This document shows, piece after piece, positions 2,684 to 30,480 of a DNA stretch of 34,312 bases (the stretch's first letter is position 1; every line of letters starts with the position of its first letter). The stretch is taken from positions 1 to 34,312 of IMG/VR virus record IMGVR_UViG_3300044802_000015. One strand, given 5' to 3'. Both the position numbers and the translations under genes were made by a program. A model generated the notes under the pieces. That model worked only from the letters and a program-made list of their open reading frames with translations, ran no database searches and was not told the origin of the DNA. The stretch is from a virus.

Positions 2684-4768
2684 TTAAAATGATAAACTCA
2701 CGTTATTCGTTATTGTTCCACTGGTTGCAGCAGTTGCCATACTCTCAAATATGTTAGATGATTGCATTGCATTTGCGTGGTTGACCAGTGTCATTCCATA
2801 CGTGCCATTTTTTAAATAGTTACCGACCAACAAGATACCATTTACATCCGTGCCAGCTGTTCCCTGTATCAATATATTTACACCACTATCATTTGCACGC
2901 ATAAGCATGTTACCACCATGTATCATGATATTATTAGCAACACCTAAAACATAAATAGTCTTATCTGCTGAATTGATTTCATTGCCGTAAATATTAAGAC
3001 CCACCAAGGCTTCACCAGCACCAAAAGTTAAAACTGCATTTATGCCAATTGTGCAACTTACAAATTTATTACAACCACAATCAACATATGCAGCCTTAAT
3101 AAGGCTAAATGGTGTTGCGCTCATGGTGTCAATATTGTCTTTTACTGTGGCCTTACCATAGTTGGTTGCTATCTCTGCACCAATACCACCCAGAGTTGTT
3201 CGCATTATCTTATTGCCGCAATATTCAACATCAATTTTAATTGTCTCAAGCGCTGTTTGATCGAAGTCAAAAACAGTATTTGAGTTGGTGCTTGAGTCTG
3301 GTGAATGGTCAAGCATATAGCACTCGTTACGATTAAATTTAAGATACATTCTTTCAGCAGAGCTATTTAATGAGTATTCAATATCAACATTACAAATAGG
3401 GCTGGTGTATGATATTGCATGGGTTACAGCATTTGTACCGGCAATTTGATAAAACTTATTGTCGTGTATGTTTACATTAGGGCTACCACAAACAATCATG
3501 TGACCAATACCGTCAAAAATTGAATTTTTAATTTCTATATTTCTACAATTTTGTCCTATTGTTATTTTTTCATTTGTATTGCTTACATAACCAGCAAGCC
3601 ACAAATCAGAATATGTTGAAACCATTTTTATATTATTAAAAATAATATTGAATGGGTTACATGCTGCATAAACACCTTGTGATATTGTAAGAACATTATC
3701 TTCTATGTCTGCAATTTTTGTTATACCACAACTGTTAAATCCATTAAAATAAACATTTCTACACCCAACAATATACATAAAATCGGCAATACCGTCTGTA
3801 GCTACTCCACAAGTAACATTATTAAAATATACGTTATAACATCCGTCCATGCTTCCAACATTAAAGGAATTAGTTGAATTTTGTGCTGTGGTTGTTTTAT
3901 GTATTCTTACATTATTAAATGTAACATTTTCGCAATAATCAAAATCAAATACTTTTTTGTATGTTGTTTCAATTTCAACATTATCAAAAGTTATATTCTT
4001 AACAGGTAATATCCTATAAATAACACACGATGCAGCTGCATAATTATTTATAAGCATGTCTTCAATAGTAATTGTACCTCCAGAACTAGAATGTACTTTG
4101 TTTAATTCGCCATTTGGAGTATCCGTTATTGATATCATATCACCAGCAACCAGAGTAGTTGTCCCACCCAAGAATCTACTTCCAATATATTTATTGAGTG
4201 TAAGAGAATTTGAAGAACCCGTTGTCCCTGTTGCGAGTATGGTTGCTGTTCCGGGGTTGCTTGTTGATGTAATAAGTAGTTTACCGTTTTCAATCGTAAT
4301 TCCGCTTTTCATTACCAGGGTGGTATTAATCTTAAATGTCTTACCAAGCAAATCAACAACGCACGTAGCTGCATCTATTGCGTCTTGAACCTGTCTTGTT
4401 TCATCGTTTGATCCATCACCTATAGCACCAAAATCCAATGGGTTACTGGCTATCTGGTGCAATCTGGAGGTAGTTTGAGAAGCTGTTGACCATACAGAAT
4501 ATTGATTGTCATATGTTTTAATTACCGCATCAGCTGCATCGGTCAAAATAACACAATATCCAGTTTCATCCTTCATGTAATAATCAGCAAAATACCCGTT
4601 ACCATCGGCAACCAAAGGGTTAGTGTTTGCGTGTGTTAATGCTTGATCTGAATAAGTATCAAGTTTAACAGTTGTACTTCCAGCAACAAAAAAGCAAAGT
4701 TTAGCACCAGCAATAGGATTGCCGTTTGTATCTAAAGCGCGTTGAATGAAAAATCCTTGATTACTCAT
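2684..4768 (-). CDS. Tailspike with N-terminal virion-binding domain and beta-helix
   Basis: A 694-aa protein. Residues 1-100 resemble the virion-binding N-terminus of podovirus tailspikes (NGNPIAGAKLCFF, TYSDQALT, NPLVADGNGYF). The motif DFGAIGDGSNDETRQVQDAI at about residues 112-131 is the usual start of a pectate-lyase-like right-handed beta-helix, followed by many short Asn-rich strands (FNNVTC, VYFNGFN, IEIKNS) as in such helices. It would bind and probably cleave a surface polysaccharide, deciding host range. The start overlaps the preceding stop (ATGA) and has AGGAGC upstream. It takes the place of P22 gene 9 at the end of the tail block. Catalytic residues cannot be assigned by eye. 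Confidence 0.88.
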   Translation of the reverse strand: MSNQGFFIQRALDTNGNPIAGAKLCFFVAGSTTVKLDTYSDQALTHANTNPLVADGNGYFADYYMKDETGYCVILTDAADAVIKTYDNQYSVWSTASQTTSRLHQIASNPLDFGAIGDGSNDETRQVQDAIDAATCVVDLLGKTFKINTTLVMKSGITIENGKLLITSTSNPGTATILATGTTGSSNSLTLNKYIGSRFLGGTTTLVAGDMISITDTPNGELNKVHSSSGGTITIEDMLINNYAAASCVIYRILPVKNITFDNVEIETTYKKVFDFDYCENVTFNNVRIHKTTTAQNSTNSFNVGSMDGCYNVYFNNVTCGVATDGIADFMYIVGCRNVYFNGFNSCGITKIADIEDNVLTISQGVYAACNPFNIIFNNIKMVSTYSDLWLAGYVSNTNEKITIGQNCRNIEIKNSIFDGIGHMIVCGSPNVNIHDNKFYQIAGTNAVTHAISYTSPICNVDIEYSLNSSAERMYLKFNRNECYMLDHSPDSSTNSNTVFDFDQTALETIKIDVEYCGNKIMRTTLGGIGAEIATNYGKATVKDNIDTMSATPFSLIKAAYVDCGCNKFVSCTIGINAVLTFGAGEALVGLNIYGNEINSADKTIYVLGVANNIMIHGGNMLMRANDSGVNILIQGTAGTDVNGILLVGNYLKNGTYGMTLVNHANAMQSSNIFESMATAATSGTITNNVSLSF

Positions 4769-8635: not shown

Positions 8636-10963
8636 TTAACCATTCTTATACATGTTATATAAATAAGCCTGTGCTGCCGTATTTCCTAAGTTACCACCCA
8701 GATTAGCAGCTGCCTGCGCACCACCACCAGCATACTGAACAGGGGATTGCATTTGACCCATAAGTGCTGCTGTTAACTGGCTGTTTTGAGTATTTGCTCC
8801 AACATCCCAATTACCCATTGCCTGACCTTGGTTCATATACTGATTTGCTAAATTACTATAATAACTTTGTGCTGCAGATGCTTGTTGCTGTTCTGCAGTA
8901 GAAAGAACAGCACCTTGTTGACCAGCTTGGTTTTGATACAAATTAGAAAGATTGCTACCATATTGACCGTATGCATTAGCTTGTTGCTGACCTGTTGCCA
9001 TTGCGTTCTGGCTTCCCATACTTGCTGCGTTTGCATAAGCACCAGCATTAGCGCTCGCATTGGTTCCTAAATAGCTATTCATCAATTGATTTTGTGATGT
9101 TTGTAATCCTGCTTGTTGACTTGCATTGTTAATGTCATATCCTGCTTGCTGACTATTTAACCCTACTTGTTGACTTCCAAGGCTTAAAGCATTTTGTGAT
9201 TTTTGTCCGCTTAATGATGCTTGTTGTGCTGCCAATTGGCTTGCATAACTTGCCTGTTGAGTACCAAGACTAGATTGTTGACTTGCTAAGTTTGAAGCCA
9301 TACCGGCCTGTGAGGTATCAAGACCAGCAAGGGCTTGACCCTGCTGCGCATTCATTCCGGCTTGGTTTTGGTATAAACTTGCTAACTGTCCAGCTTGCTG
9401 AGTTGACAACCCTGCCTGTTGCGATGTTAACCCTGCAGTTGCATTACCTTTTGACACGTCATACGCTGCCTGTTGACCACCGATACCAGCCAAAGCAGTT
9501 CCTTGGCTAGAAAGGTTAGAAGCTTGTTGACCAGTTAAGGCATTTTGTTGATTTTGATTTTGCAAGTAAACATTGCTCAAATTATTACCGGCATTGGTTA
9601 AATTAGATGCTTGTTGTTGAGCTGCCGTGTTTTGGTAACCGGCCACTTGTCCTGCTTGCTGTAGTTTGCTTGCGTCAACACTGCTAGTAGCTCCAACAAG
9701 TTGGTTATTTGCAGCTAGTTGGTTTTGAACATATTGTTGATAGTCTTGATTTGCCAAATTAGTATCGTATTTTGACAATGCTTTTAACGTAGCACCAGAA
9801 TTGCGACCACCCTGCGCAGCTGCTGCCCTTTGTATTGCCTGTTCGCCCTGTTGCTGCTTAAATGCGTATCCCGGGTCTTGCTGATATCCTTGACCAAGTG
9901 CTTGATTACCTAGTTGACCAAGTAAGCCTTCAGTTTTTGATTGAACACCACCAACCGTATTTTGAGCCTGTTGTGAACCTTGACCTAGTGTTTGGTTCGC
10001 CATTTCGGTTGAACCAGCAATTGACCCAAGAGCACTATTTCCAGATTGTGCAGTTGATTGACCAGCTTGGCCCAATACTTGGTTTGCTTGTCCATAACCT
10101 TGTGAAATATCACCTTTGGTTTGTCCTAATTGCTGATTGGCTTGACCATAACCCTGTTGTAATTGCATCCCTGCTTTATTGTAATCCTGATTGGCTTGAC
10201 CATAACCCTGGTTGGTTACTCCTAAAGCATTATTATAGTTTTGATTGGCTTGTGAATAACCCGAGTTAATATCTTGGTTTGCGCTACCATATAAACTATT
10301 TACTTGGCTACCGCCCTGAGATAGCTGATTAGATGATTGGCCAAACAAATTGCTTACTTGTCCATATCCTTGATTTAATTGACTTCCTGCTTGATTAAGG
10401 TAGTTATTTGACTGATTATTTGCACCGGTCAACAATCCTTGTGACCTACTTGTCAGATTAGTTGCTTGCTGCAATCCCTGATTAAGGTCTTGTGTCGCGT
10501 ATTTTGTAGCTTGTTGAGTATTGCCTTGTTGTTGTTGTAATGATGCATTATTTATATTTTGTTGTTGATTGGTTCCTACCTGAATGTTTCCTTGTGCTTG
10601 TTGATATGCTTGCGCAAGGGCGGATTGTGTTTGACCAAGACCAGAACCGAGAGCCTGTTGTGATTGATTACCATATTGATCATACATTCCTTGCAATTGA
10701 GGAACGTATTGATTAACTATATCGTTTGTAGCTCCATAACCAGATGCTAGTGCAGCACGTGAATTAGGACCATAAATATCTGACATCCCACGGTTAGCAG
10801 CATCAATATTCTGCTGATTTTGCCGCATTTGTGCTTCTGTTAATGCTGTTTGTTGCGCAAGGGCTTCTTTTGAAGCCTTTTCCTGAGAATCAGCAGCGCT
10901 TTTTTGTCCAAGATAATTTATACCAGCGCCAACTATTGTGCCAAGTGCTAGACCCCAAGCCAT
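8636..10963 (-). CDS. Gln/Asn-rich repeat protein, probable DNA-transfer/ejection protein
   Basis: A 775-aa low-complexity protein rich in Gln, Asn, Ala, Gly and Ser. An N-terminal segment (ALGTIVGAGINYLGQKSAAD) is hydrophobic. From about residue 150 to 330 it has repeats close to 11 residues long with the recurring core QGYGQANQ (also SGYSQANQ and LGQAG). A conserved-looking block, DPGYAFKQQQGEQAIQRAAA followed by GGRNSGATLKALSKY (about residues 365-400), is a motif I associate with podovirus tail or DNA-transfer proteins. A second set of shorter repeats (SQQAGLSTQQAG) follows. In gene order it matches P22 gene 7. A long helical bundle spanning the periplasm is an inference. TAATG overlap with the GNAT gene implies translational coupling. 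Confidence 0.75.
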   Translation of the reverse strand: MAWGLALGTIVGAGINYLGQKSAADSQEKASKEALAQQTALTEAQMRQNQQNIDAANRGMSDIYGPNSRAALASGYGATNDIVNQYVPQLQGMYDQYGNQSQQALGSGLGQTQSALAQAYQQAQGNIQVGTNQQQNINNASLQQQQGNTQQATKYATQDLNQGLQQATNLTSRSQGLLTGANNQSNNYLNQAGSQLNQGYGQVSNLFGQSSNQLSQGGSQVNSLYGSANQDINSGYSQANQNYNNALGVTNQGYGQANQDYNKAGMQLQQGYGQANQQLGQTKGDISQGYGQANQVLGQAGQSTAQSGNSALGSIAGSTEMANQTLGQGSQQAQNTVGGVQSKTEGLLGQLGNQALGQGYQQDPGYAFKQQQGEQAIQRAAAAQGGRNSGATLKALSKYDTNLANQDYQQYVQNQLAANNQLVGATSSVDASKLQQAGQVAGYQNTAAQQQASNLTNAGNNLSNVYLQNQNQQNALTGQQASNLSSQGTALAGIGGQQAAYDVSKGNATAGLTSQQAGLSTQQAGQLASLYQNQAGMNAQQGQALAGLDTSQAGMASNLASQQSSLGTQQASYASQLAAQQASLSGQKSQNALSLGSQQVGLNSQQAGYDINNASQQAGLQTSQNQLMNSYLGTNASANAGAYANAASMGSQNAMATGQQQANAYGQYGSNLSNLYQNQAGQQGAVLSTAEQQQASAAQSYYSNLANQYMNQGQAMGNWDVGANTQNSQLTAALMGQMQSPVQYAGGGAQAAANLGGNLGNTAAQAYLYNMYKNG

Positions 10964-14305: not shown

Positions 14306-14341
14306 AATAAAATGAAATGGGGTAGCTGTTACACTACCCCA
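14306..14341 (-). terminator. Intrinsic terminator downstream of the coat gene
   Basis: Read on the minus strand, a perfect 8-bp stem TGGGGTAG / CTACCCCA with an 8-base loop (14318-14341) is followed by TTTCATTTTATT (14317-14306). It lies 29 bases after the coat stop codon and before the next gene. It probably reduces read-through, so that coat and scaffold are made in excess over the tail genes. Tail expression would then need read-through or antitermination, since no clear promoter is seen after it. Confidence 0.75.
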
Positions 14342-14369: not shown

Positions 14370-15434
14370 CTATGTATCAGCAACAGCTGCGCAATAGATA
14401 GTGAAAACACCATTTTGCTTGCTATTGAACATAAGCTTTTCAATTCCACGAATCTCTGACAATGCTACACCGCTTTTTGCGCCGTAATCAAATGTCTTAG
14501 TCGTGAATTGTGTACGTTGACCCCAGCCAATACCGACGGCTTGTGCGCCTACTAGAAAGTTAGCTGCGATATCAGTTGTACCACTTGCACCAGCATTAGA
14601 AATAACGCCAATTTCTGGAATTTCTTTGCAGATAACGCCGTCCCACATAATATCGCCATCAACAAATAGTGGGTTGTCGTCGCCGCGTACGGCTGCATAA
14701 CTTTGGATAGTTGCCAAAGAGGTTTTTAAATCTCTAAAGCAATAACTATTACAAAGCAACACGTACCATTCACCTTTTTCATCAACTTTGATAGGTCGAA
14801 TGTGAGGTGATGCTACTTTCGCCATACGTTTAGCAAGACTTACGATTCCATAAGCCAACACGTCTGCTGAACCGTCAACGGTAGCAGTGCATACGCTATG
14901 GTCATTACCTGCGTTATTAGCTTTTGCAGCTCCAAATAACACGCGGTCACTATTTGCAGCCAACCACGCATCTTTTTGTGCTTCAGTTGCATCAGCATAT
15001 TTGGTTTTGCCGTCAACTACTGGACTATAAAGCGCATTGATAATACCAGTACGCATTTGGTCAACTGACCAATTTTTTAATGCAGCCCGAGACGCATTAA
15101 GCAAGTCAATCTTGCTTTTGATTTGCTGCATATTACCAACTACTACTGCATTACGTAATTGGTCGATGGTCAACTGATGACCATAGTTACCCAACATCTC
15201 TTCATTTCCTTCGAGGGTGTTATTGCCAGTCACACCAGCATTAACTAATCGAGTAATGAGAGATACGGTTACTTTGTCGCCTACTTGTTTGGTCAAGTCT
15301 TCAATCAACTGCAAGGCGCTGTTTTCATCAGTACCCATCAATTTTTGAAATTGACTCGCTCGAACGTATTCTGTGAAAAATTTATCAGACCATGCAGTTA
15401 CGCTATTGGCTGACGCTAAAATAGTATCTGACAT
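14370..15434 (-). CDS. Major capsid protein, N4-gp56/DUF4043-like
   Basis: A 354-aa protein following the scaffold gene. It opens with SVTAWSDKFFTEYVRASQF, then GDKVTVSLITRL and GNNTLEGNEEMLGNYGHQLTI, a layout I associate with the N4-gp56 family of HK97-fold coat proteins. RNAVVVGNMQQ and the C-terminal SEIRGIEKLMFNSKQNGVFTIY also fit. AAAGGA lies before the ATG. In the capsid it would form the shell around the scaffold. This family differs from P22 gp5 (430 aa), so the genome combines a P22-like portal and tail with another coat type. A terminator follows the gene. Confidence 0.85.
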   Translation of the reverse strand: MSDTILASANSVTAWSDKFFTEYVRASQFQKLMGTDENSALQLIEDLTKQVGDKVTVSLITRLVNAGVTGNNTLEGNEEMLGNYGHQLTIDQLRNAVVVGNMQQIKSKIDLLNASRAALKNWSVDQMRTGIINALYSPVVDGKTKYADATEAQKDAWLAANSDRVLFGAAKANNAGNDHSVCTATVDGSADVLAYGIVSLAKRMAKVASPHIRPIKVDEKGEWYVLLCNSYCFRDLKTSLATIQSYAAVRGDDNPLFVDGDIMWDGVICKEIPEIGVISNAGASGTTDIAANFLVGAQAVGIGWGQRTQFTTKTFDYGAKSGVALSEIRGIEKLMFNSKQNGVFTIYCAAVADT

Positions 15435-15446
15435 AATAAAATCCTT

Positions 15447-16217
15447 TTAGCGACCACCCAACATAGACCTCAGACTTGTGGGTCCAGTGAATGGTTGCGT
15501 TGTTTCAGAGCCAGAGCCTCTTGCCCCAGCTATAGTTTTTGGTAAATTTTTGACAATTGCTTGACCGTATTTTTGCGAGTATTCGTCTTCAAGTTTTTGG
15601 CGCTCTTCATTACGTATTTTTTCACGCAATTCAGAGATTGAACCAACATCTTTAGCTTCAAGATAAGTCTTGCCGTTTTCATATGCAAAATAGGCAGGGT
15701 TTTGATGTTCTCCCATTTGGCGAACCAAGTCAGGTGACATCTTCGACATCTCTAGGAACGCATCGACCGCTTGTTGATAATCTTCTGGATGTTGTTGACG
15801 TACCATCTGTTCGCTTAAGTTCAAACGTTCAAGTCTTACTCTGTTTTCCATAAACGCAACTGGATCCCTGAAGAACATATCTTCTTGAGATGGATGCTTA
15901 ACAGGTTGGTTACCTTGTGGATTAATATGTTGAGTGTACGCCTTAACTTGTCCACTCATTTCTGCAAGTTGACGCTCAAGTTCTTGTCGTTTCTGTCTTT
16001 CTTTCTTCAACTCTTTGAATGGAATGTGTCTTGTGTTACTTTTTTGATCTAAATCATCGTGATCATCATCAGATTCTTTTTCTTTTGTTTTTAACTCTTC
16101 TTTTGGTGCTTTATCCTCAGTTTTTTTAGGGGTTTCAGCATCAGGTAAAGAATTTCCAACATCAGCAAAAGCTTCTGGTTCCTTTTCATCGATAATTGTG
16201 TTCAAATCAGTAGCCAT
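15447..16217 (-). CDS. Scaffolding protein
   Basis: A 256-aa highly charged, helix-rich protein just upstream of the coat gene. The N-terminal half is acidic and Lys/Glu-rich (KEELKTKEKESDDDHDDLDQ), then KELKKERQKRQELERQLAEM is a clear coiled coil (about residues 80-105), and the C-terminus is short and basic-glycine-rich (TSLRSMLGGR). These are usual features of podovirus scaffolds, which guide coat assembly and leave before or during packaging. The ATG at 16217 has AAGGAG nine bases upstream; the longer frame to 16262 has no ribosome site. Confidence 0.82.
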   Translation of the reverse strand: MATDLNTIIDEKEPEAFADVGNSLPDAETPKKTEDKAPKEELKTKEKESDDDHDDLDQKSNTRHIPFKELKKERQKRQELERQLAEMSGQVKAYTQHINPQGNQPVKHPSQEDMFFRDPVAFMENRVRLERLNLSEQMVRQQHPEDYQQAVDAFLEMSKMSPDLVRQMGEHQNPAYFAYENGKTYLEAKDVGSISELREKIRNEERQKLEDEYSQKYGQAIVKNLPKTIAGARGSGSETTQPFTGPTSLRSMLGGR

Positions 16218-16280
16218 AATACACTCCTTACGCCTTTTTACGTAGGCGAACGATAGACGCAATACACTAGAATATATGTA

Positions 16281-16309
16281 TTGCGATATAATATGATATA
16301 TTGTATATC
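16281..16309 (+). promoter_or_regulatory. Candidate promoter for the lone plus-strand gene
   Basis: TTGCGA (16281-16286) and TATATC (16304-16309) are 17 bases apart, in a stretch of alternating A/T from about 16265 to 16315. The match to a sigma70 promoter is moderate. The gene it would drive (16365) is divergent from the scaffold gene, so some promoter must be here. A minus-strand promoter (TTGCGG, 17 bases, TATACA, within about 16300-16330) may overlap it and serve the scaffold and coat genes. Confidence 0.5.
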
Positions 16310-16337
16310 AGTATAACGCAAAGACCGCAACAAAAAA

Positions 16338-16354
16338 TTAGGGGTAAACCCTAA
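16338..16354 (+). promoter_or_regulatory. 5'-UTR hairpin abutting the Shine-Dalgarno
   Basis: TTAGGG (16338-16343) and CCCTAA (16349-16354) can form a 6-bp stem with the loop GTAAA. The AAGGAG ribosome site begins at the last base of the stem, and the ATG is at 16365. Such a small stem could protect the mRNA 5' end or tune initiation without hiding the ribosome site. Confidence 0.5.
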
Positions 16355-16364
16355 AGGAGATTCT

Positions 16365-16835
16365 ATGACTACTTATCGTTCTACAACTGCAGCGGCAGAC
16401 TATCCTTGCGACCATGGTCGTGGTGGTCATCAAGTTTTATGTTCTTACGGGACGTACACAGTGACCAGCGCATTAGTAAAAGATGACGTTTATTTGATGT
16501 CTAAGTTACCACCCAAAGCCATTGTTTTGAGTGGAATGCTTTATGGTACTGATATCGACACAGGTACAGAGACTCTTGAAATGGATATCGGTAAATATGA
16601 CAGCACCGGAGCTGTTGTAACTGCTGATTATTATCATAACTCAGGAGTAATCGATGGTGATTCACTTGAACATGCTGGTAACATAGCTTGGATTTGTGAA
16701 CACATGAACGCGTTAAACGCTCCACTTACACCCAGCTCAACAGCTGAAACGTATGTTGGTGTTAAAATTACTGCAGCTGCTAATGCAACTGGTACAGGTA
16801 CTTTCACAACCGTAATCAATTACATTGTGCCGTAG
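16365..16835 (+). CDS. Probable head decoration protein on the opposite strand
   Basis: A 156-aa beta-rich, Thr/Ala-rich protein. KDDVYLMSKLPPKAIVLSGM at about residues 39-58, followed by GTDIDTGTETLEMDIG, is a pattern I associate with small virion proteins encoded beside coat genes, probably decoration or head-surface proteins. AAGGAG lies just before the ATG. It is the only plus-strand gene in the 16 kb of head and tail genes, sitting between the glycosyltransferase and the scaffold. It has its own promoter-like sequence and terminator. Independent expression at a high level would suit a protein needed in hundreds of copies. The role is inferred; no homology search was done. Confidence 0.75.
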   Translation: MTTYRSTTAAADYPCDHGRGGHQVLCSYGTYTVTSALVKDDVYLMSKLPPKAIVLSGMLYGTDIDTGTETLEMDIGKYDSTGAVVTADYYHNSGVIDGDSLEHAGNIAWICEHMNALNAPLTPSSTAETYVGVKITAAANATGTGTFTTVINYIVP

Positions 16836-16885
16836 TAGGATTAGTTAATAACTAGTTAATTTCTAGTTAATTTTTTAACTAATAC

Positions 16886-16926
16886 AAACCCTGCTAGATG
16901 TAAAAGTTTAGCAGGGTTATTTTTTG
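16886..16926 (+). terminator. Intrinsic terminator of the decoration gene
   Basis: AACCCTGCT (16887-16895) pairs perfectly with AGCAGGGTT (16910-16918), extendable by one A-T pair, and is followed by ATTTTTTTG on the plus strand. It overlaps the last codon and stop of the convergent glycosyltransferase gene (stop at 16917-16919). On the minus strand no T-run follows the stem, so it should act only on the plus transcript. Confidence 0.85.
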
Positions 16927-17621
16927 CGTTCTTTAGGTCCTTTAAATTGACCTGTCATAACTGCAGACCGTAAGAAACCAACAGCAGATTTACCATAAAA
17001 TACTGATTTACTATTCCATTCAATTTTACTCGCATCTTTTACAAACCATGAAGACATAAAATCTTTATTGCTTCCATTAAACAGCGTAGAATGTGCGTCT
17101 GGCCTATGCTCTGCAAGGCTTGGTATGCTGCAATATGTTTTAATATGGTTTGCTGCAGCATAAAGGCTTACGTGTAAATCTCCTGACTTATTCCAAACAC
17201 TTACATATTTGTCATCCCAACATACCATGTGTTTAGCTAATTTTGATTTTAAGCATGTAGCTGCTCCATAAACATGGTTTGTGCTTTCTAGCCAACAGTA
17301 ACCACCATTCTTGACTCTTTTAACTAATTCATTTTTACGACCAATAAACAAACTAGCAATATCGCCTGGACAGTACGATAAGCATCTTGCTGCCTCATAT
17401 TCAAAGTTATCACAAACAATAACATCATCATCCAACATAATAATCCAATCGCAACCACTATCTGCACCATGTAGCTTTTGAGTACGACGAGTACGCCAGC
17501 TACCACCCGATAGCGGAACGTCAACACATACTATTGCGTTAGGTATTTGTTTTAATAAATCTGCTAGGTAATTTCTGCGTGATACGATTGAACCAATATA
17601 AATTTTAATCGTAGGTAACAC
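16917..17621 (-). CDS. Glycosyltransferase-like protein
   Basis: A 234-aa protein. It starts with a strand LPTIKIYIGSIVSRRNYLAD, then CDWIIMLDDDVIVCDNF (about residues 57-73), where LDDDV is a DxD-type metal and nucleotide-sugar site of a GT-A fold. Later come ESTNHVYGAATCLKSKLAKH and WNKSGDLHVS, consistent with an acceptor region. It would transfer a sugar in the cytoplasm. The target could be a virion protein, host O-antigen or DNA; position between portal and scaffold slightly favours a virion protein. The start is a GTG two bases after the portal stop, without a good ribosome site, so coupling is likely. Confidence 0.72.
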   Translation of the reverse strand: MLPTIKIYIGSIVSRRNYLADLLKQIPNAIVCVDVPLSGGSWRTRRTQKLHGADSGCDWIIMLDDDVIVCDNFEYEAARCLSYCPGDIASLFIGRKNELVKRVKNGGYCWLESTNHVYGAATCLKSKLAKHMVCWDDKYVSVWNKSGDLHVSLYAAANHIKTYCSIPSLAEHRPDAHSTLFNGSNKDFMSSWFVKDASKIEWNSKSVFYGKSAVGFLRSAVMTGQFKGPKERKK

Positions 17622-17622
17622 G

Positions 17623-19707
17623 TTATTGTTGTGGTGGCTGTCCTACTGGCATCTGTGAAACTTGTTGAGCTGCAACCATTCCAGGATTAGGTTGTGGGTT
17701 TGCTTCAGCCATAATTGCTCCAGCTTGTGCGGCATGTTTAACGGCTCGCGCTTGCTCCATTTGAAGATTAGGACCAATAGCCTGAGTCTCTGCTTGAACA
17801 TGTTGTGCATCTGCTTGAGCCTTAAGTGTTTGAGCATCCTTAAGCTTAGCATCGGCTTGCATAACCATCATTTGTGCCTGCTGCATCATTTGTTGCGCTT
17901 GCATCATTTGTGGATTGTTTTGCTGTTGCAACATATCAAGCAGTTTTTTCTTATTGCGTAACTGGCTTGCTTCAATCAAAACTTCTGGCGGTATTGGAAT
18001 TCCATTTTGTGCAAGAGAAGCCATCTTTTCAAACTCTTCTTGTTCAATAACGGCCGTGTCTGGTGTCTCTGTTAAAATAATATCTATGTCTAAATTATTC
18101 GTAGAGTTACCAATCCAAGGCTGTTGCATTGGTGGTGATTGTAATATTACTTGTAATGCCTGCTGTTGTGCTTGCATTGGGTCCATAGGGGATGGGGCTG
18201 GTTGACCTTGTTGAGGTGGTTGCTGTCCTTGTTGAATTATTTGTTGTACTATCTTGTTAAACCCTTCCATGGCCATAGGTTCAACTTGATTAAGAGCGTT
18301 AGCTGGTTCAACTCCCTTTTGTAGTATCTCCATAACTCGTTGACCTAAAGTCATCTTTTTATTTAGCCCAACAAAGCGATATCCAGCAGGGTCTTTTTCA
18401 TCTGATATTCTAATCCACTTTTCATCTTTCCAAAATTGCCTAATTCGTAACCACATAGCCACAAAGATATCATGCGACCACTCTTTGATATTGTCAGATA
18501 CTTCCTCAAGTTCAATAGTCATCGCTCTTTGCTTGGCTAATATAGCGCGTCCACTTGCACCCTGTTCATTATCTTCACTTGGTCCTACAAAATCAATTTC
18601 ACCCTTTGCTTCTTGAAGTAACTGGAATTGACCTTGCACCATGTCTTGATTTTGCAATATCTCAAACATAGCATTAGGTTTAACTTCAACAGCACCATCA
18701 GGCTTTGCAAGTTGAGTCATTGCGGTTTGAATATTCTCAACTGCTCCTGATTCATATTTAACTTGACGCAACGTTAAGAGATGCAGAGCTTTAGACCTGC
18801 GCTTGTTAATTTCTTCTTGTGGGCTTATCAGGTTTCTAACAACTCCATATCGGTTATTATCTTTATCAATAAAACCGCTTGTCATAATTAAAGGACAAAC
18901 GTTGCGTTCTTTTTCATTAAGAAATCCTGTTGGATTTGGTTCATCTAAGAAACCACCACGAACAAACGTACACTTGTACCATTCTCCTGATTTCTTATAA
19001 TACATCTCAATTACTTTAACTCGTTTACGTTTTGGATCACCCCAAACACGCGGAGCATCATCAAGAGTATTGTTATTTGCATTTGTAGTTAGCGTAGAAT
19101 CAACGATGTCTTTTTTATCTTCCCATCTGTCTTTAGCATCTTCTACGTCCATCCAAAGACAAATGCCTACAAATTTAGCATCACTAAAATCAATTTCTCT
19201 AGCATGAGGATCATAAATCAGTCTATCCCATGACACATATCGCAGCATCACGTCAACGGTTGGTTGTTCATCCGTACCCGTATTCTCAACCTCTACAACA
19301 GCACCGCCACAACCTTCGACACTCACATTTTTATGAACGCGAGTTCTAAGCTTTCCAAATCGTTGCGCATCAGCAACATAGCGTAACGCATCAGTCATAG
19401 CGTTTGCTGCATCACTGTGTTTACTTGGCGTACGCGGTAATGCTTCAGGGTCAATACGTGACCTAATCTCATTGCCAACAATGCTATTTATCTTTTTAGC
19501 AATACGATTGATTGTAATAACAGGCTGACCGCGCTTGTTAAGTTCTGTAATCTCGTCGGACGTCCATTGTATACCATCGTAAAAGTCACGATCTTTCTGT
19601 GCTTTCTTTCTATTGTCTGTGGTTGCCGTGTCCCAATCCTCAACCCACTGTACCATTTTCACAAGTTGTTCGTTTAAGTCTTGTTCTTCTTTTTCTTTTT
19701 TCTTCAT
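17623..19707 (-). CDS. P22-like portal protein
   Basis: A 694-aa protein close in size to P22 gp1 (725 aa). The family start is clear: RKKAQKDRDFYDGIQW, then LNKRGQPVITINRIAKKINS and VGNEIRSRIDPEALP. LISPQEEINKRRSKALHLL and SGRAILAKQRAMTIELEE fit the core. The last 150 residues are Gln/Met/Ala-rich helix (MMQAQQMMQQAQMMVMQADA), like the C-terminal barrel of P22-type portals. Twelve copies would form the DNA gate and bind terminase and the gp4-like adaptor. The ATG at 19707 lies just after the terL stop and has GGAAGG upstream; a TTG at 19716 is rejected. Confidence 0.92.
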   Translation of the reverse strand: MKKKEKEEQDLNEQLVKMVQWVEDWDTATTDNRKKAQKDRDFYDGIQWTSDEITELNKRGQPVITINRIAKKINSIVGNEIRSRIDPEALPRTPSKHSDAANAMTDALRYVADAQRFGKLRTRVHKNVSVEGCGGAVVEVENTGTDEQPTVDVMLRYVSWDRLIYDPHAREIDFSDAKFVGICLWMDVEDAKDRWEDKKDIVDSTLTTNANNNTLDDAPRVWGDPKRKRVKVIEMYYKKSGEWYKCTFVRGGFLDEPNPTGFLNEKERNVCPLIMTSGFIDKDNNRYGVVRNLISPQEEINKRRSKALHLLTLRQVKYESGAVENIQTAMTQLAKPDGAVEVKPNAMFEILQNQDMVQGQFQLLQEAKGEIDFVGPSEDNEQGASGRAILAKQRAMTIELEEVSDNIKEWSHDIFVAMWLRIRQFWKDEKWIRISDEKDPAGYRFVGLNKKMTLGQRVMEILQKGVEPANALNQVEPMAMEGFNKIVQQIIQQGQQPPQQGQPAPSPMDPMQAQQQALQVILQSPPMQQPWIGNSTNNLDIDIILTETPDTAVIEQEEFEKMASLAQNGIPIPPEVLIEASQLRNKKKLLDMLQQQNNPQMMQAQQMMQQAQMMVMQADAKLKDAQTLKAQADAQHVQAETQAIGPNLQMEQARAVKHAAQAGAIMAEANPQPNPGMVAAQQVSQMPVGQPPQQ

Positions 19708-19708
19708 T

Positions 19709-21157
19709 TTATGCAACCTTCCAATTATGTTCTATTGGTTCTTTCTCTGCCCACATATCAGTAACAACCTTAGGTTTCAAGCTAACAATTGCAGGGTGTG
19801 CTTTATCAAGTGCCATGCAAAAAATAGACATAGCATCGAATGCATCATCATGGCGACCACCCGGGAATGACACACATTGATTTATTGCCCTGTCAGCCCA
19901 GTCGGTAAAAGGAAACTTAATCTTTCCCATTGATGCACGCGCTTGGAATGATCTACCTCGCACCGCTTTGTCGTGTATCGATGTTATCCATTCGCAACGC
20001 AAAAACACCTTACGCTCTTGCATGCGTTTAATTAAGAACGGTTCTATTGCTCGATGAATAGTGCCACCTTCACCAAACCAAGCAAATGGCTTATGTTCCT
20101 TCGCCAAGTCAAGCAACGAATCAATCCATTTGTCAGGTGTTGTTTGGCCATACCACCAATCTATAACGTAAATATCTGAATTACTATCAATGCCAAGAAC
20201 AGCATGCTCCGTGTAGTCGGGGTCACTTCCTGACCTTGGTTCACTGACTGCGAAGTCAGAAGCAATGTAATAATACATACGCTCAGGTAAACGCTCATAT
20301 CTGTTCTCCTGTAGCCAAGCCCGTTGCATATACGAGCCAGTTTCAACGCTTGGCTGCTGTTGGTAAAGTGCTGACCATTCTCTATCTTGTATAACAGACT
20401 TAGTATGTTTTAACGCTCCAAGGTCAAACCATTCTGGCCATAAAGCACGCTCTTGCGATGTTCCCTCATTCTCGATAGCAGGTAAAGAAACCACTTCCCA
20501 CTTCTCAGATTGCAAAGCTATTCCTGCCAAATCGTCGTCTGCCCAACGAGTACACATAAGAACTATGGCCCCATCTGGCATCAATCGAGTGTAAAGAGTA
20601 GAGGCATACCATTCCCATATTTTCTTTTTATGTACTTCACTATCAGCTTCTTCTCTGTTCTTTATTGGATCATCAATAATAATACAAGAAGCTCCAAAGC
20701 CTGTAATGCTACCACCCACACCAGTTGACACATAAACGCCACCACTTGACGTGTGCCATTTACCAGCTGCCTGGCTGTCTTGTGCAAGCTTAACGTTTTT
20801 AAATACTCCCTGGTAGATTGGCTCATTAACTAAGTTTCTAACCTTACGCCCAAAGTCATTAGCTAGCTCTGCGTTGTATGAAGTGCTTATGATTTGCTTG
20901 GTAGGATTTCTTCCAATATACCAAGCTGGAAACCTAATTGTTGCTATCTCTGATTTACCGTGTCGAGGCGGTGCAAAGACAGCAAGTCTTTTAATCTCGC
21001 CACGTTCAACAGCTTCGAGTGCATCACATATACGCTTATGGTGATTTCCTGACTGCCAACGCGGATGAGTATACTCAATAAACGGCAATAGCTTTCTATG
21101 TGCTAGTGTTCGCTTGATTGATGATTCCACTATCCGTTGTTCTATCAAACTGTCCAT
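19709..21157 (-). CDS. terL: Terminase large subunit
   Basis: A 482-aa protein with an N-terminal packaging ATPase and a C-terminal nuclease. The Walker A-like APPRHGKSE is at residues 62-70 and Walker B CIIIDDPIKNREEA at about 158-171. The TSYNAELANDFGRKVRN stretch between is also typical. The nuclease part shows YIASDFAVSE, with EHAVLGIDSNSDIYVIDWWYG and the C-terminal acidic site GRHDDAFDAMS. It cuts and pumps DNA into the prohead at the portal. The first 62 bases overlap the end of the upstream gene in another frame. The start is supported by the usual TerL beginning (LLPFIEYTHPRWQSGNHH). Confidence 0.95.
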   Translation of the reverse strand: MDSLIEQRIVESSIKRTLAHRKLLPFIEYTHPRWQSGNHHKRICDALEAVERGEIKRLAVFAPPRHGKSEIATIRFPAWYIGRNPTKQIISTSYNAELANDFGRKVRNLVNEPIYQGVFKNVKLAQDSQAAGKWHTSSGGVYVSTGVGGSITGFGASCIIIDDPIKNREEADSEVHKKKIWEWYASTLYTRLMPDGAIVLMCTRWADDDLAGIALQSEKWEVVSLPAIENEGTSQERALWPEWFDLGALKHTKSVIQDREWSALYQQQPSVETGSYMQRAWLQENRYERLPERMYYYIASDFAVSEPRSGSDPDYTEHAVLGIDSNSDIYVIDWWYGQTTPDKWIDSLLDLAKEHKPFAWFGEGGTIHRAIEPFLIKRMQERKVFLRCEWITSIHDKAVRGRSFQARASMGKIKFPFTDWADRAINQCVSFPGGRHDDAFDAMSIFCMALDKAHPAIVSLKPKVVTDMWAEKEPIEHNWKVA

Positions 21158-21665
21158 TGTGTACCCTGATTAAAGAGTTCTGAATAGATTCTATTGTTGA
21201 CTTTAATCCATAATGTTTATGTTCTTGTATAATAATATCAATCATTGGCCTAACTGCCAAGTAGGTATCATACTTATTAACCTTGCCATCTGGTAGTCCG
21301 CAAAGTTCAGATGCGCTTGATACCAAGTGACTACGACAAGCAATAGGCCTAACTGGGTAGATTGAGCAACCACCCTTATCATCCAGAAACACACACCCGT
21401 TGTGCATTCCTGCGTATTCTGTTGCATTCATCTTACTCTGCAATCCAGATTGTTCATTTACTCTTACCCAATCTAATTTTAATTTAATATTATCAACATA
21501 TTTTAGTATAACCATTGCTTCTATTTGTGAAATATTTATTACTAACTCACAACAGGCAATACAGCCTTTTTTACATGATATTTGTTTTCTATGTAGGTTT
21601 TTGCTGATTGAATTATCAAGAGTTCTGAATGCGTTTATAACGCGACGATAAGAACCTCTATCCAT
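21096..21665 (-). CDS. YkgJ-type cysteine-cluster protein between terS and terL
   Basis: A 189-aa protein with the full pattern of the YkgJ/FliB-like cysteine-cluster family: SCKKGCIACCELV (Cys 31, 35, 38, 39), then GCVFLDDKGGCSIYPVRPIACRSH (Cys 91, 100, 110), and a further Cys 122. The family is thought to bind Zn or Fe-S; functions are poorly known. The ATG at 21665 is chosen because it follows the other starts closely (eight-base overlap with terS); the longer frame begins at a TTG without a ribosome site. The C-terminus overlaps terL by 62 bases, so it is made with the packaging motor. A role in packaging, in protein methylation or in redox sensing cannot be told apart here. Confidence 0.82.
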   Translation of the reverse strand: MDRGSYRRVINAFRTLDNSISKNLHRKQISCKKGCIACCELVINISQIEAMVILKYVDNIKLKLDWVRVNEQSGLQSKMNATEYAGMHNGCVFLDDKGGCSIYPVRPIACRSHLVSSASELCGLPDGKVNKYDTYLAVRPMIDIIIQEHKHYGLKSTIESIQNSLIRVHNGQFDRTTDSGIINQANTST

Positions 21666-22122
21666 TGCTATTCTTTTTCTTGATATCTTCAAGTAATTTC
21701 ATCAGCTGGTCTAAAGGCAATTCATCAATGTTAGTCGTGCTTGTAATTTCGATAGTTGATTCGGTTTTAATTCTGTCTTTATAATCGTCTGGCTTATGGG
21801 CTTTAAGAATAGTATTCATCAGCTGGTCCGAGTATTCTTGTATGTGTCCTACAAGCTGACCACTTTGATACACTGGCTTTTCGTATCCTTCGACAGCCCT
21901 ACGCTTTGCTTCATCTTCTATCGTATCAGCAATAGAATCTCTACATTTATTAAATTTCTCTAAGAAATCAGGACAAGTATCTTTCCAAACATATAAAAGA
22001 CCTCTATTTATTTTAGCTTCTTCACAGGCTCTACCGACCATTATTGTGCGCTTATAAGCATCTAAAAATGCCTCTTGTTTGTCTAGCTGGAGTTTCCTTG
22101 TCTTAAAACCACTACCTGACAT
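21658..22122 (-). CDS. terS: Terminase small subunit
   Basis: A 154-aa protein two genes before terL. The N-terminal half has an HTH-like section (KRTIMVGRACEEAKINRGLLYVWKDT, about residues 24-49), then DFLEKFNKCRDSIADTIEDEAKRRAVEG, the helical oligomerisation pattern common in small terminases, then YSDQLMNTILKAHKPDDYKDR, a motif seen in many TerS proteins. It would recognise the packaging site and load TerL. It starts three bases after the preceding stop and has only a weak ribosome site, so coupling is likely. Confidence 0.85.
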   Translation of the reverse strand: MSGSGFKTRKLQLDKQEAFLDAYKRTIMVGRACEEAKINRGLLYVWKDTCPDFLEKFNKCRDSIADTIEDEAKRRAVEGYEKPVYQSGQLVGHIQEYSDQLMNTILKAHKPDDYKDRIKTESTIEITSTTNIDELPLDQLMKLLEDIKKKNSNG

Positions 22123-27977: not shown

Positions 27978-28023
27978 TTTGTGATGCATGGGATACATTC
28001 CCCATTTGTTCATGCATCACAAA
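27978..28023 (+). promoter_or_regulatory. Long perfect hairpin between recombination genes
   Basis: TTTGTGATGCATG (27978-27990) pairs without mismatch with CATGCATCACAAA (28011-28023), a 13-bp stem enclosing 20 bases. It lies ten bases after the DUF669 stop, and AAGGAG for the exonuclease follows at 28027. No T-run follows on either strand, so it is not a standard terminator. It may be an RNA processing or stability element that sets the ratio of ssDNA-binding protein to nuclease, or a binding site in DNA. Confidence 0.65.
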
Positions 28024-29540: not shown

Positions 29541-29734
29541 TGAGTGACATCCAACACTACATTCGTTTCTATGATGAATCAGGTAAACAAATAATGAACC
29601 AATTCAAAGCTGGATGGGGTTGTCCGATAGGATGTAAAATTATTTTTGGAGAGTTAGGAAGATACAAAGCTATTCATAGAGTTGAGTTACCAGATGGAAG
29701 TCTTGAGATAACAGTGAGGAAGGTAGGGAAATAA
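29540..29734 (+). CDS. Small early protein, unknown role
   Basis: A 64-aa beta-rich protein ([46 protein letters not shown]). Two Cys stand in CPIGC. It overlaps both neighbours by TAATG and precedes the pentapeptide-repeat gene. I do not recognise it. Confidence 0.62.
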
Positions 29735-30480
29735 TGCATATTCAAATCAAAAACAGATACGACGAATCAGTAATATTTGAAGGTGAATTTGAAACGCTGT
29801 TATTGTCGGTTGAGGAGGCTGTGAGGAAAAACGCTAATTTGTACGATGCTAATTTGTACGGTGCTAATTTGCGCGGTGCTAATTTGCGCGGTGCTAATTT
29901 GTACGATGCTAATTTGTACGGTGCTAATTTGCGCGGTGCTAATTTGTGCGGTGCTAATTTGTACGATGCTAATTTGTACGGTGCTAATTTGCGCGGTGCT
30001 AATTTGTGCGGTGCTAATTTGTACGATGCTAATTTGCGCGGTGCTAATTTGTACGATGCTAATTTGTACGGTGCTAATTTGCGCGGTGCTAATTTGTGCG
30101 GTGCTGTAAATCTGAACAAATATTTAACTACTCCAATGTATATCCTAAAAGATCAAGTTGGAAAAATACGCGCATACAAACTCGTAAAAGAAAACGGCGA
30201 AGGCCCAATGAATGGAGGGATAAAATACGAAATAGGAAAAATCTATAATGTTGATGATGCGAATACAGATGAGAATGAAAACTGTTCAACAGGAATACAT
30301 TTAGCAGGTCTTGATTGGGTAATGAAAGAATGGAAACAAGGATATAAAATATTGATTGCAGAATTTACGGCCGAAGACATCGCGGCAATCCCGATCGGGT
30401 CCGATGGTAAATTTAGGGTTTTTAAATGCAAAATTATTAAAGAGAAAGATTTAAAAGAACTAGGATTGGATGGTAAATAA
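29734..30480 (+). CDS. Pentapeptide-repeat protein with DUF7666-like tail
   Basis: A 248-aa protein of three parts. Residues 1-33 are a short cap ([20 protein letters not shown]). Residues 34-123 are 18 exact pentapeptides A-N-L-x-(D/G) with x being Tyr, Arg or Cys, which should fold as a right-handed quadrilateral beta-helix. The C-terminal part ([41 protein letters not shown]) resembles the DUF7666-type domain often found after such repeats in phage proteins. Some pentapeptide proteins mimic DNA and bind gyrase, but Tyr/Arg-rich faces here are not acidic, so that is not supported. It is in the early operon, linked by TAATG overlaps on both sides. Confidence 0.83.
29833..30102 (+). repeat. 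Eighteen 15-bp tandem repeats with a 60-bp higher order
   Basis: Each unit is GCTAATTTG followed by TACGAT, TACGGT, CGCGGT or TGCGGT; the first nine bases never vary over 18 units. Units run in the order YD-YG-RG-RG, YD-YG-RG-CG twice, YD-RG, then YD-YG-RG-CG, so a 60-bp block has been copied, and one block has lost two units. The near absence of silent changes points to recent expansion by slippage or unequal recombination. Confidence 0.97.

Follow-up and report, generated by a model that had tools for sequence, protein, structure and literature searches.

An inverted capsid cement gene, head-to-head with the scaffold gene, in a small lineage of uncultured podoviruses

The window, by which we mean the whole stretch of DNA analysed, is a virus record of 34,312 bases from an uncultured short-tailed phage (podovirus). 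In tailed phages the late head genes usually form one co-directional operon. Gene calls bear out the statement of an earlier note on this DNA that all the other head and tail genes, from terS (21658-22122) at the start of the block down to the tailspike at its far end (about 2.7 kb; 2684-4768), lie on the minus strand, including the head-completion and tail genes. Inside this block a single gene is found on the plus strand, at 16365-16835; the 156-aa reading frame proposed there is real, and sequence homology, profile and model fold assign it to a capsid cement (decoration) protein.

Its minus-strand neighbours are the terminase large subunit gene terL (19709-21157; PHROG 38, E 8.7e-103), the P22-like portal gene (17623-19716; PF16510, E 9.9e-95, with its place in a clade tree), a glycosyltransferase gene (16917-17621; PHROG 854 glucosyltransferase, E 1.2e-15), the scaffold gene (15447-16217, ATG at 16217) and the gene of the major capsid protein, or coat (14370-15434; Phage_capsid_3, Pfam PF13252, E 1.8e-52; PHROG 334, E 1.7e-75). 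The scaffolding protein was recognised by its position between portal and coat and by 40% identity to the ORF at the same place in a related locus, L103. The scaffold and cement genes stand head-to-head, and the glycosyltransferase gene is the second occupant of the slot between portal and scaffold; its target may be DNA or surface.

Some other genes of the window may be mentioned here. A 105-aa ORF after the coat gene, considered as a second cement gene, has no credible family match, is missed by the cement profile and was rejected. The early block contains a pentapeptide-repeat protein gene (29734-30480; PF00805, E 5e-50), and positions 8636-10963 encode a 775-aa protein in which Gln, Gly and Ala strongly predominate and short imperfect repeats are numerous; it weakly matches a family of DNA ejection proteins.

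The identity of the 156-aa protein is supported by several searches. As a single sequence it matches the cement protein of Pam1 (7EEL_H; phmmer against PDB, E 6e-4) and the virion structural protein family PHROG 8455 (E 8.6e-5), and a tblastn search of 50,697 phage records gave one match, the annotated cement protein of Pam5 (33.5% over 100%, E 2e-11). When viral contigs were scanned with single sequences, either cement or coat of the window, no relative came up, and alignments had to be used. A family profile of 41 members, from which the Pam phages were left out, matches 7EEL_H with E 2.4e-12 and gp1 of phage GP4 (8H89_J) with E 6.1e-7. The AlphaFold2 model (pLDDT 87.3) superposes on GP4 gp1 with Z 17.2 and an rmsd of 2.2 over 143 residues, followed by the cement proteins of Pam1 (Z 13.9), KHP30 (10.9) and KHP40 (10.2); beyond these four, the next phage match has Z 8.2 and the rows below it do not exceed 7.7. 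By sequence and by fold, membership in the Ig-like capsid cement family of the Pam1/GP4/KHP30 type is secure, and the supposition of a capsid decoration gene was correct. By analogy with GP4 and Pam1, the protein should be arranged as trimers on the outer face of the expanded head of this P22-type podovirus.

The cement gene is preceded by a Shine-Dalgarno sequence AAAGGAG (16353-16359; AGGAG at 16355-16359) located 5 nt before its ATG. The 6-bp hairpin TTAGGG/CCCTAA reported to touch this site was found again (16338-16354, arms 16338-16343/16349-16354; fold z -3.2 on the plus strand and -2.3 on the minus strand). Its minus-strand reading had been overlooked: in the scan, 16354-16338 represents a small terminator-like element, a stem followed by T6. 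Downstream of the gene, the terminator and its T-run (16887-16925, plus strand) stand as described, with the correction that the perfect stem is of 10 bp and not 9 bp (16887-16896/16909-16918); 13 pairs are formed in total, T6 follows at 16920-16925, and the fold of -20 kcal/mol (z -5.9) makes it the top terminator-like element of the whole window in the scan. The stem had also been thought to double as the last codons of the glycosyltransferase gene. It overlaps only two bases of the stop codon (16917-16919), and it is the T-run that encodes the last two lysines. This hairpin may be weakly active on the minus strand too.

Another strong terminator-like hairpin (14318-14341, minus strand; fold z -5.9) is located just 3' of the coat gene, and in the scan, ranked by G+C pairs, the hairpin 14341-14318 is the runner-up to the cement terminator. 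Each of the two shell-protein units is thus closed by one of the genome's two strongest terminators.

The cement gene is convergent with the glycosyltransferase gene, and so one can suppose that the plus-strand transcript serves mainly to damp glycosyltransferase or scaffold expression, an antisense effect on the neighbours that the earlier note had proposed. The terminator, however, would stop such a transcript where it reaches the far end of the glycosyltransferase gene, no more than about 10 nt from the stop codon, which is why we consider damping very improbable; moreover, the cement ORF encodes a conserved, foldable protein. The suggestion that the cement gene, on a strand of its own, stands outside the operon agrees with its position.

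The gap between the scaffold (minus) and cement (plus) genes, 16218-16364, is a putative control region for both strands. It contains a perfect 9-bp dyad, CGCAATACA-N10-TGTATTGCG (16258-16285, shuffle p about 0.03), which the earlier note had missed and which is a candidate regulator site. The core of this dyad, ATACA-N10-TGTAT, is found both in the window and in L103, at 54 and 53 nt from the scaffold ATG, respectively. The 3.47 Mb of loci contain it at no further site, L004 and L176 being copies of the window and L103. The promoter-like boxes described in this gap were not substantiated: TATAAT is present at 16287-16292 with no good -35 nearby, and the best sigma-70 score in 16218-16364 is at the level of chance (shuffles p 0.49 on the plus strand and 0.24 on the minus strand).

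Among related loci with a strand switch at this place, which are described below, dyads with p<=0.05 in the shuffle test occur in four of eight divergent gaps, as compared with none of 45 canonical portal-scaffold gaps. Besides that of the window, significant dyads are located in the gaps of L285, L215 and L195, while the dyad of L103 by itself is not significant (p 0.17). The dyad sequences are unlike between most strand-switch members, and a search for a short motif common to all divergent gaps gave G+C-rich best seeds barely above shuffles. This computed enrichment suits a divergent control region bound by a regulator, with the dyads as putative operators. Such dyads are not unique to the scaffold-cement gap, since a perfect 13-bp inverted repeat, TTTGTGATGCATG-N20-CATGCATCACAAA (27978-28023, shuffle p 0.005), lies within the short interval that separates two plus-strand genes in the replication region.

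To place this arrangement among relatives, coat, portal and cement profiles were run over 301 loci, of which 153 distinct ones contain both coat and cement. The cement gene is on the coat strand in 150 of them and lies -60 to +120 nt downstream of the coat gene in 140; the annotations of Pam5 and Pam1 likewise show cement immediately behind coat, in the same direction. It is inverted in three only, the window, L103 (a 12.7-kb contig) and L285 (from a 37.2-kb contig), and this fraction is not a natural frequency as the loci were gathered by similarity. In all three the gene is located between portal and scaffold, head-to-head with the latter. The usual place of this gene is right after coat, and with 150 of the 153 related loci keeping it in the coat direction, the inversion is derived and lineage-specific. 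The earlier note had held that relatives with the gene in the coat direction and no independent transcript would refute the unit; that direction indeed prevails, and it indicates a derived inversion rather than an unreal unit.

The surroundings of the three inverted genes are not identical. The stop codons of cement and portal overlap by 4 nt in L103 and are 1 nt apart in L285; neither has a terminator after cement, and the glycosyltransferase gene between cement and portal is present in the window only. As the strand-switch relatives are all metagenomic contigs and the arrangement is rare, one can ask whether assembly or binning has flipped a piece of a contig. We find this scarcely credible: the genes on both sides are intact, the same layout recurs in independent contigs with a portal identity of only about one half, and the 4-nt overlap in L103 is not neatly produced by a chimera.

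The portal tree unites the window, L103 and L285 in one clade. When further rows were added, all nine strand-switch rows were placed in one 10-row clade (support 99/99; fewest changes, 2), in which L033 is the sole row without a strand switch. In five of the nine (the window, L103, L285, L244 and L055) an opposite-strand gene occupies the slot beside a normal portal, and in the other four (L215, L195, L235 and L269) the portal itself is inverted; L343, found later, is a further case of inverted portal. The slot in these rows contains cement, another unassigned protein, or either of them plus the inverted portal. In L269, itself only a 5.2-kb fragment, the inverted portal is preceded by two cement genes, and the scaffold is deduced from a 43-aa fragment; this tandem cement pair (332-1345) is convergent with terL. 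The cement tree groups L103, L285 and L269 and leaves the window copy unplaced on a long branch. A single clade for the three inverted cements is not rejected (AU p 0.37), so the sequences are compatible with a single origin of the inverted cement.

The other proteins encoded in the slot are homologous to one another and make up a family marked by the motif FxGRSDGI. Its genes are opposite to coat in L244, L055, L215 and L235 and run along with coat in L033; L343 and L360 carry the family in the two orientations, as judged from the motif only. The slot therefore takes the same kind of gene either way. Members of this family (L244 6631-8292, L055 4326-6541, L033 5830-6741, L360 11633-12598 and L343 11879-14277) have a signal-peptide-like start and no match among the Pfam families tested, and are candidate alternative surface proteins.

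The occurrence of homologous slot genes on either strand, together with the inversion of the portal itself in some relatives, could also point to an invertible (phase-variable) segment, flipped by site-specific or homologous recombination between cement-on and cement-off or alternative surface states. Against this, no inverted repeat of at least 10 bp flanks the cement cassette (16151-16364 compared with 16836-17000), and no inversion recombinase was found among the subset of window ORFs tested; we regard a switch of this kind as quite improbable.

More generally, the portal-scaffold slot has a median length of 112 nt, exceeds 350 nt in 65 of 210 loci and contains varied cargo. For example, a ribonucleotide reductase small subunit gene lies between portal and scaffold in L059 (10947-11951; PHROG 86, E 1.3e-63). 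In L201 (3454-7910) a displaced cement gene is followed by ORFs that by eye resemble a TnpA/TnpB pair of the IS200/IS605 type, and the terL gene after them has an apparent intein-like insertion, also noted by eye.

Such a site invites comparison with morons. According to this explanation, the phage would have gained the cement gene recently as an autonomous unit, complete with promoter and terminator, at a tolerant place in the late operon; the gene would be dispensable, and mobile between phages. The pid gene of P22 was called a moron because it is inserted at a site that is empty or differently occupied in relatives, is transcribed in the opposite direction and has a 3' Rho-independent terminator (PMC3573128), and the cement unit likewise lies on the opposite strand, ends with a terminator-like hairpin and occupies a site that in relatives holds other cargo or none. 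Its composition is nevertheless native: GC and GC3 of the cement gene (0.423 and 0.295) are like those of portal (0.405/0.291), scaffold (0.397/0.285) and coat (0.421/0.336), which gives no sign of recent acquisition. Neither inverted nor direct repeats were found to flank the cassette, no promoter rises above chance, L103 and L285 keep the gene in the same place and on the same strand, and its product is a shell protein that the wider group shares. Recent acquisition of a moron thus seems to us unlikely, though less so than the other alternatives. The same evidence divides the proposal of an insertable cassette: relatives do carry other cargo or none at the site, whereas the case for a recent mobile insertion is weakened by native composition, lack of repeats and a place kept in relatives. 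The best reading is that the slot is prone to insertion and inversion, and that the cement gene is moron-like in layout but old and native in composition.

We consider it probable that the arrangement represents a rewiring at the level of the lineage, in which the cement gene is read divergently from scaffold and coat out of a shared control region, as the gene layout suggests. The portal-scaffold stretch probably became a site for opposite-strand genes in an ancestor of this lineage, and in the window the site is occupied by cement. Scaffold-coat and cement would be read outward from one short divergent region and presumably be co-regulated, with a regulator probably bound at the dyad of the gap. 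Such control would keep cement and coat in balance once the cement gene had left the coat operon, and would provide a coat-matched output of cement without readthrough from portal. With a strong terminator closing each shell unit, the high-copy shell genes would thus be separated from the rest, if transcription follows the predicted signals.

More tentatively, and with somewhat more doubt than belief, one can suggest that this podovirus lineage rebuilt its head-gene expression around a regulated bidirectional region, the regulator at the dyad setting both outputs: scaffold and coat on one side, and cement, cement plus portal or another slot protein on the other. As part of the same proposal, the portal-scaffold interval would be a long-lived hotspot of insertion and inversion for accessory, possibly surface-protein, genes.

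The protein family is a known one; its arrangement here is new and marks a small lineage of uncultured phages. In the open-licence literature we found neither an inverted cement gene nor a strand switch upstream of scaffold described. Cement is needed at about the copy number of coat, and its divergent position represents a natural experiment on the control of shell stoichiometry. Here a structural gene is laid out like a moron, and the portal-scaffold gap is a place to seek accessory capsid proteins in uncultured phages.

Among known systems, the cyanophages Pam1 (PDB 7EEL) and Pam5 share with the window a homologous cement protein of the same fold and a head neighbourhood of terS, terL, P22-like portal, scaffold and Phage_capsid_3-type coat. 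They differ in that their cement gene directly follows coat on the same strand, while that of the window is inverted upstream of scaffold. The best fold match is gp1 of the Ralstonia phage GP4 (PDB 8H89; Z 17.2 over 143 residues), although the identity is only about 19%. In GP4 this protein is present in 540 copies, equal to the coat number, and forms Ig-like trimers at the quasi-threefold axes of the outer surface (PMC9698820); a corresponding location of the window protein in the virion is predicted by this likeness.

With respect to anatomy, the closest parallel is P22 pid, since all three reasons for calling it a moron are found in the cement unit. However, pid is a host-interaction gene, whereas the window gene is a structural gene of the shell, with native composition, no flanking repeats and a place kept in distant relatives. 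The dec protein of phage L is likewise an accessory decoration protein of a P22-type head, with an OB-fold (PMC9698820) in contrast to the Ig-like window cement. In the parts of the phage L report consulted, its authors place the virion assembly genes in the late operon and mention neither an opposite strand nor a terminator for dec (PMC8022706), while the cement gene of the window has both.
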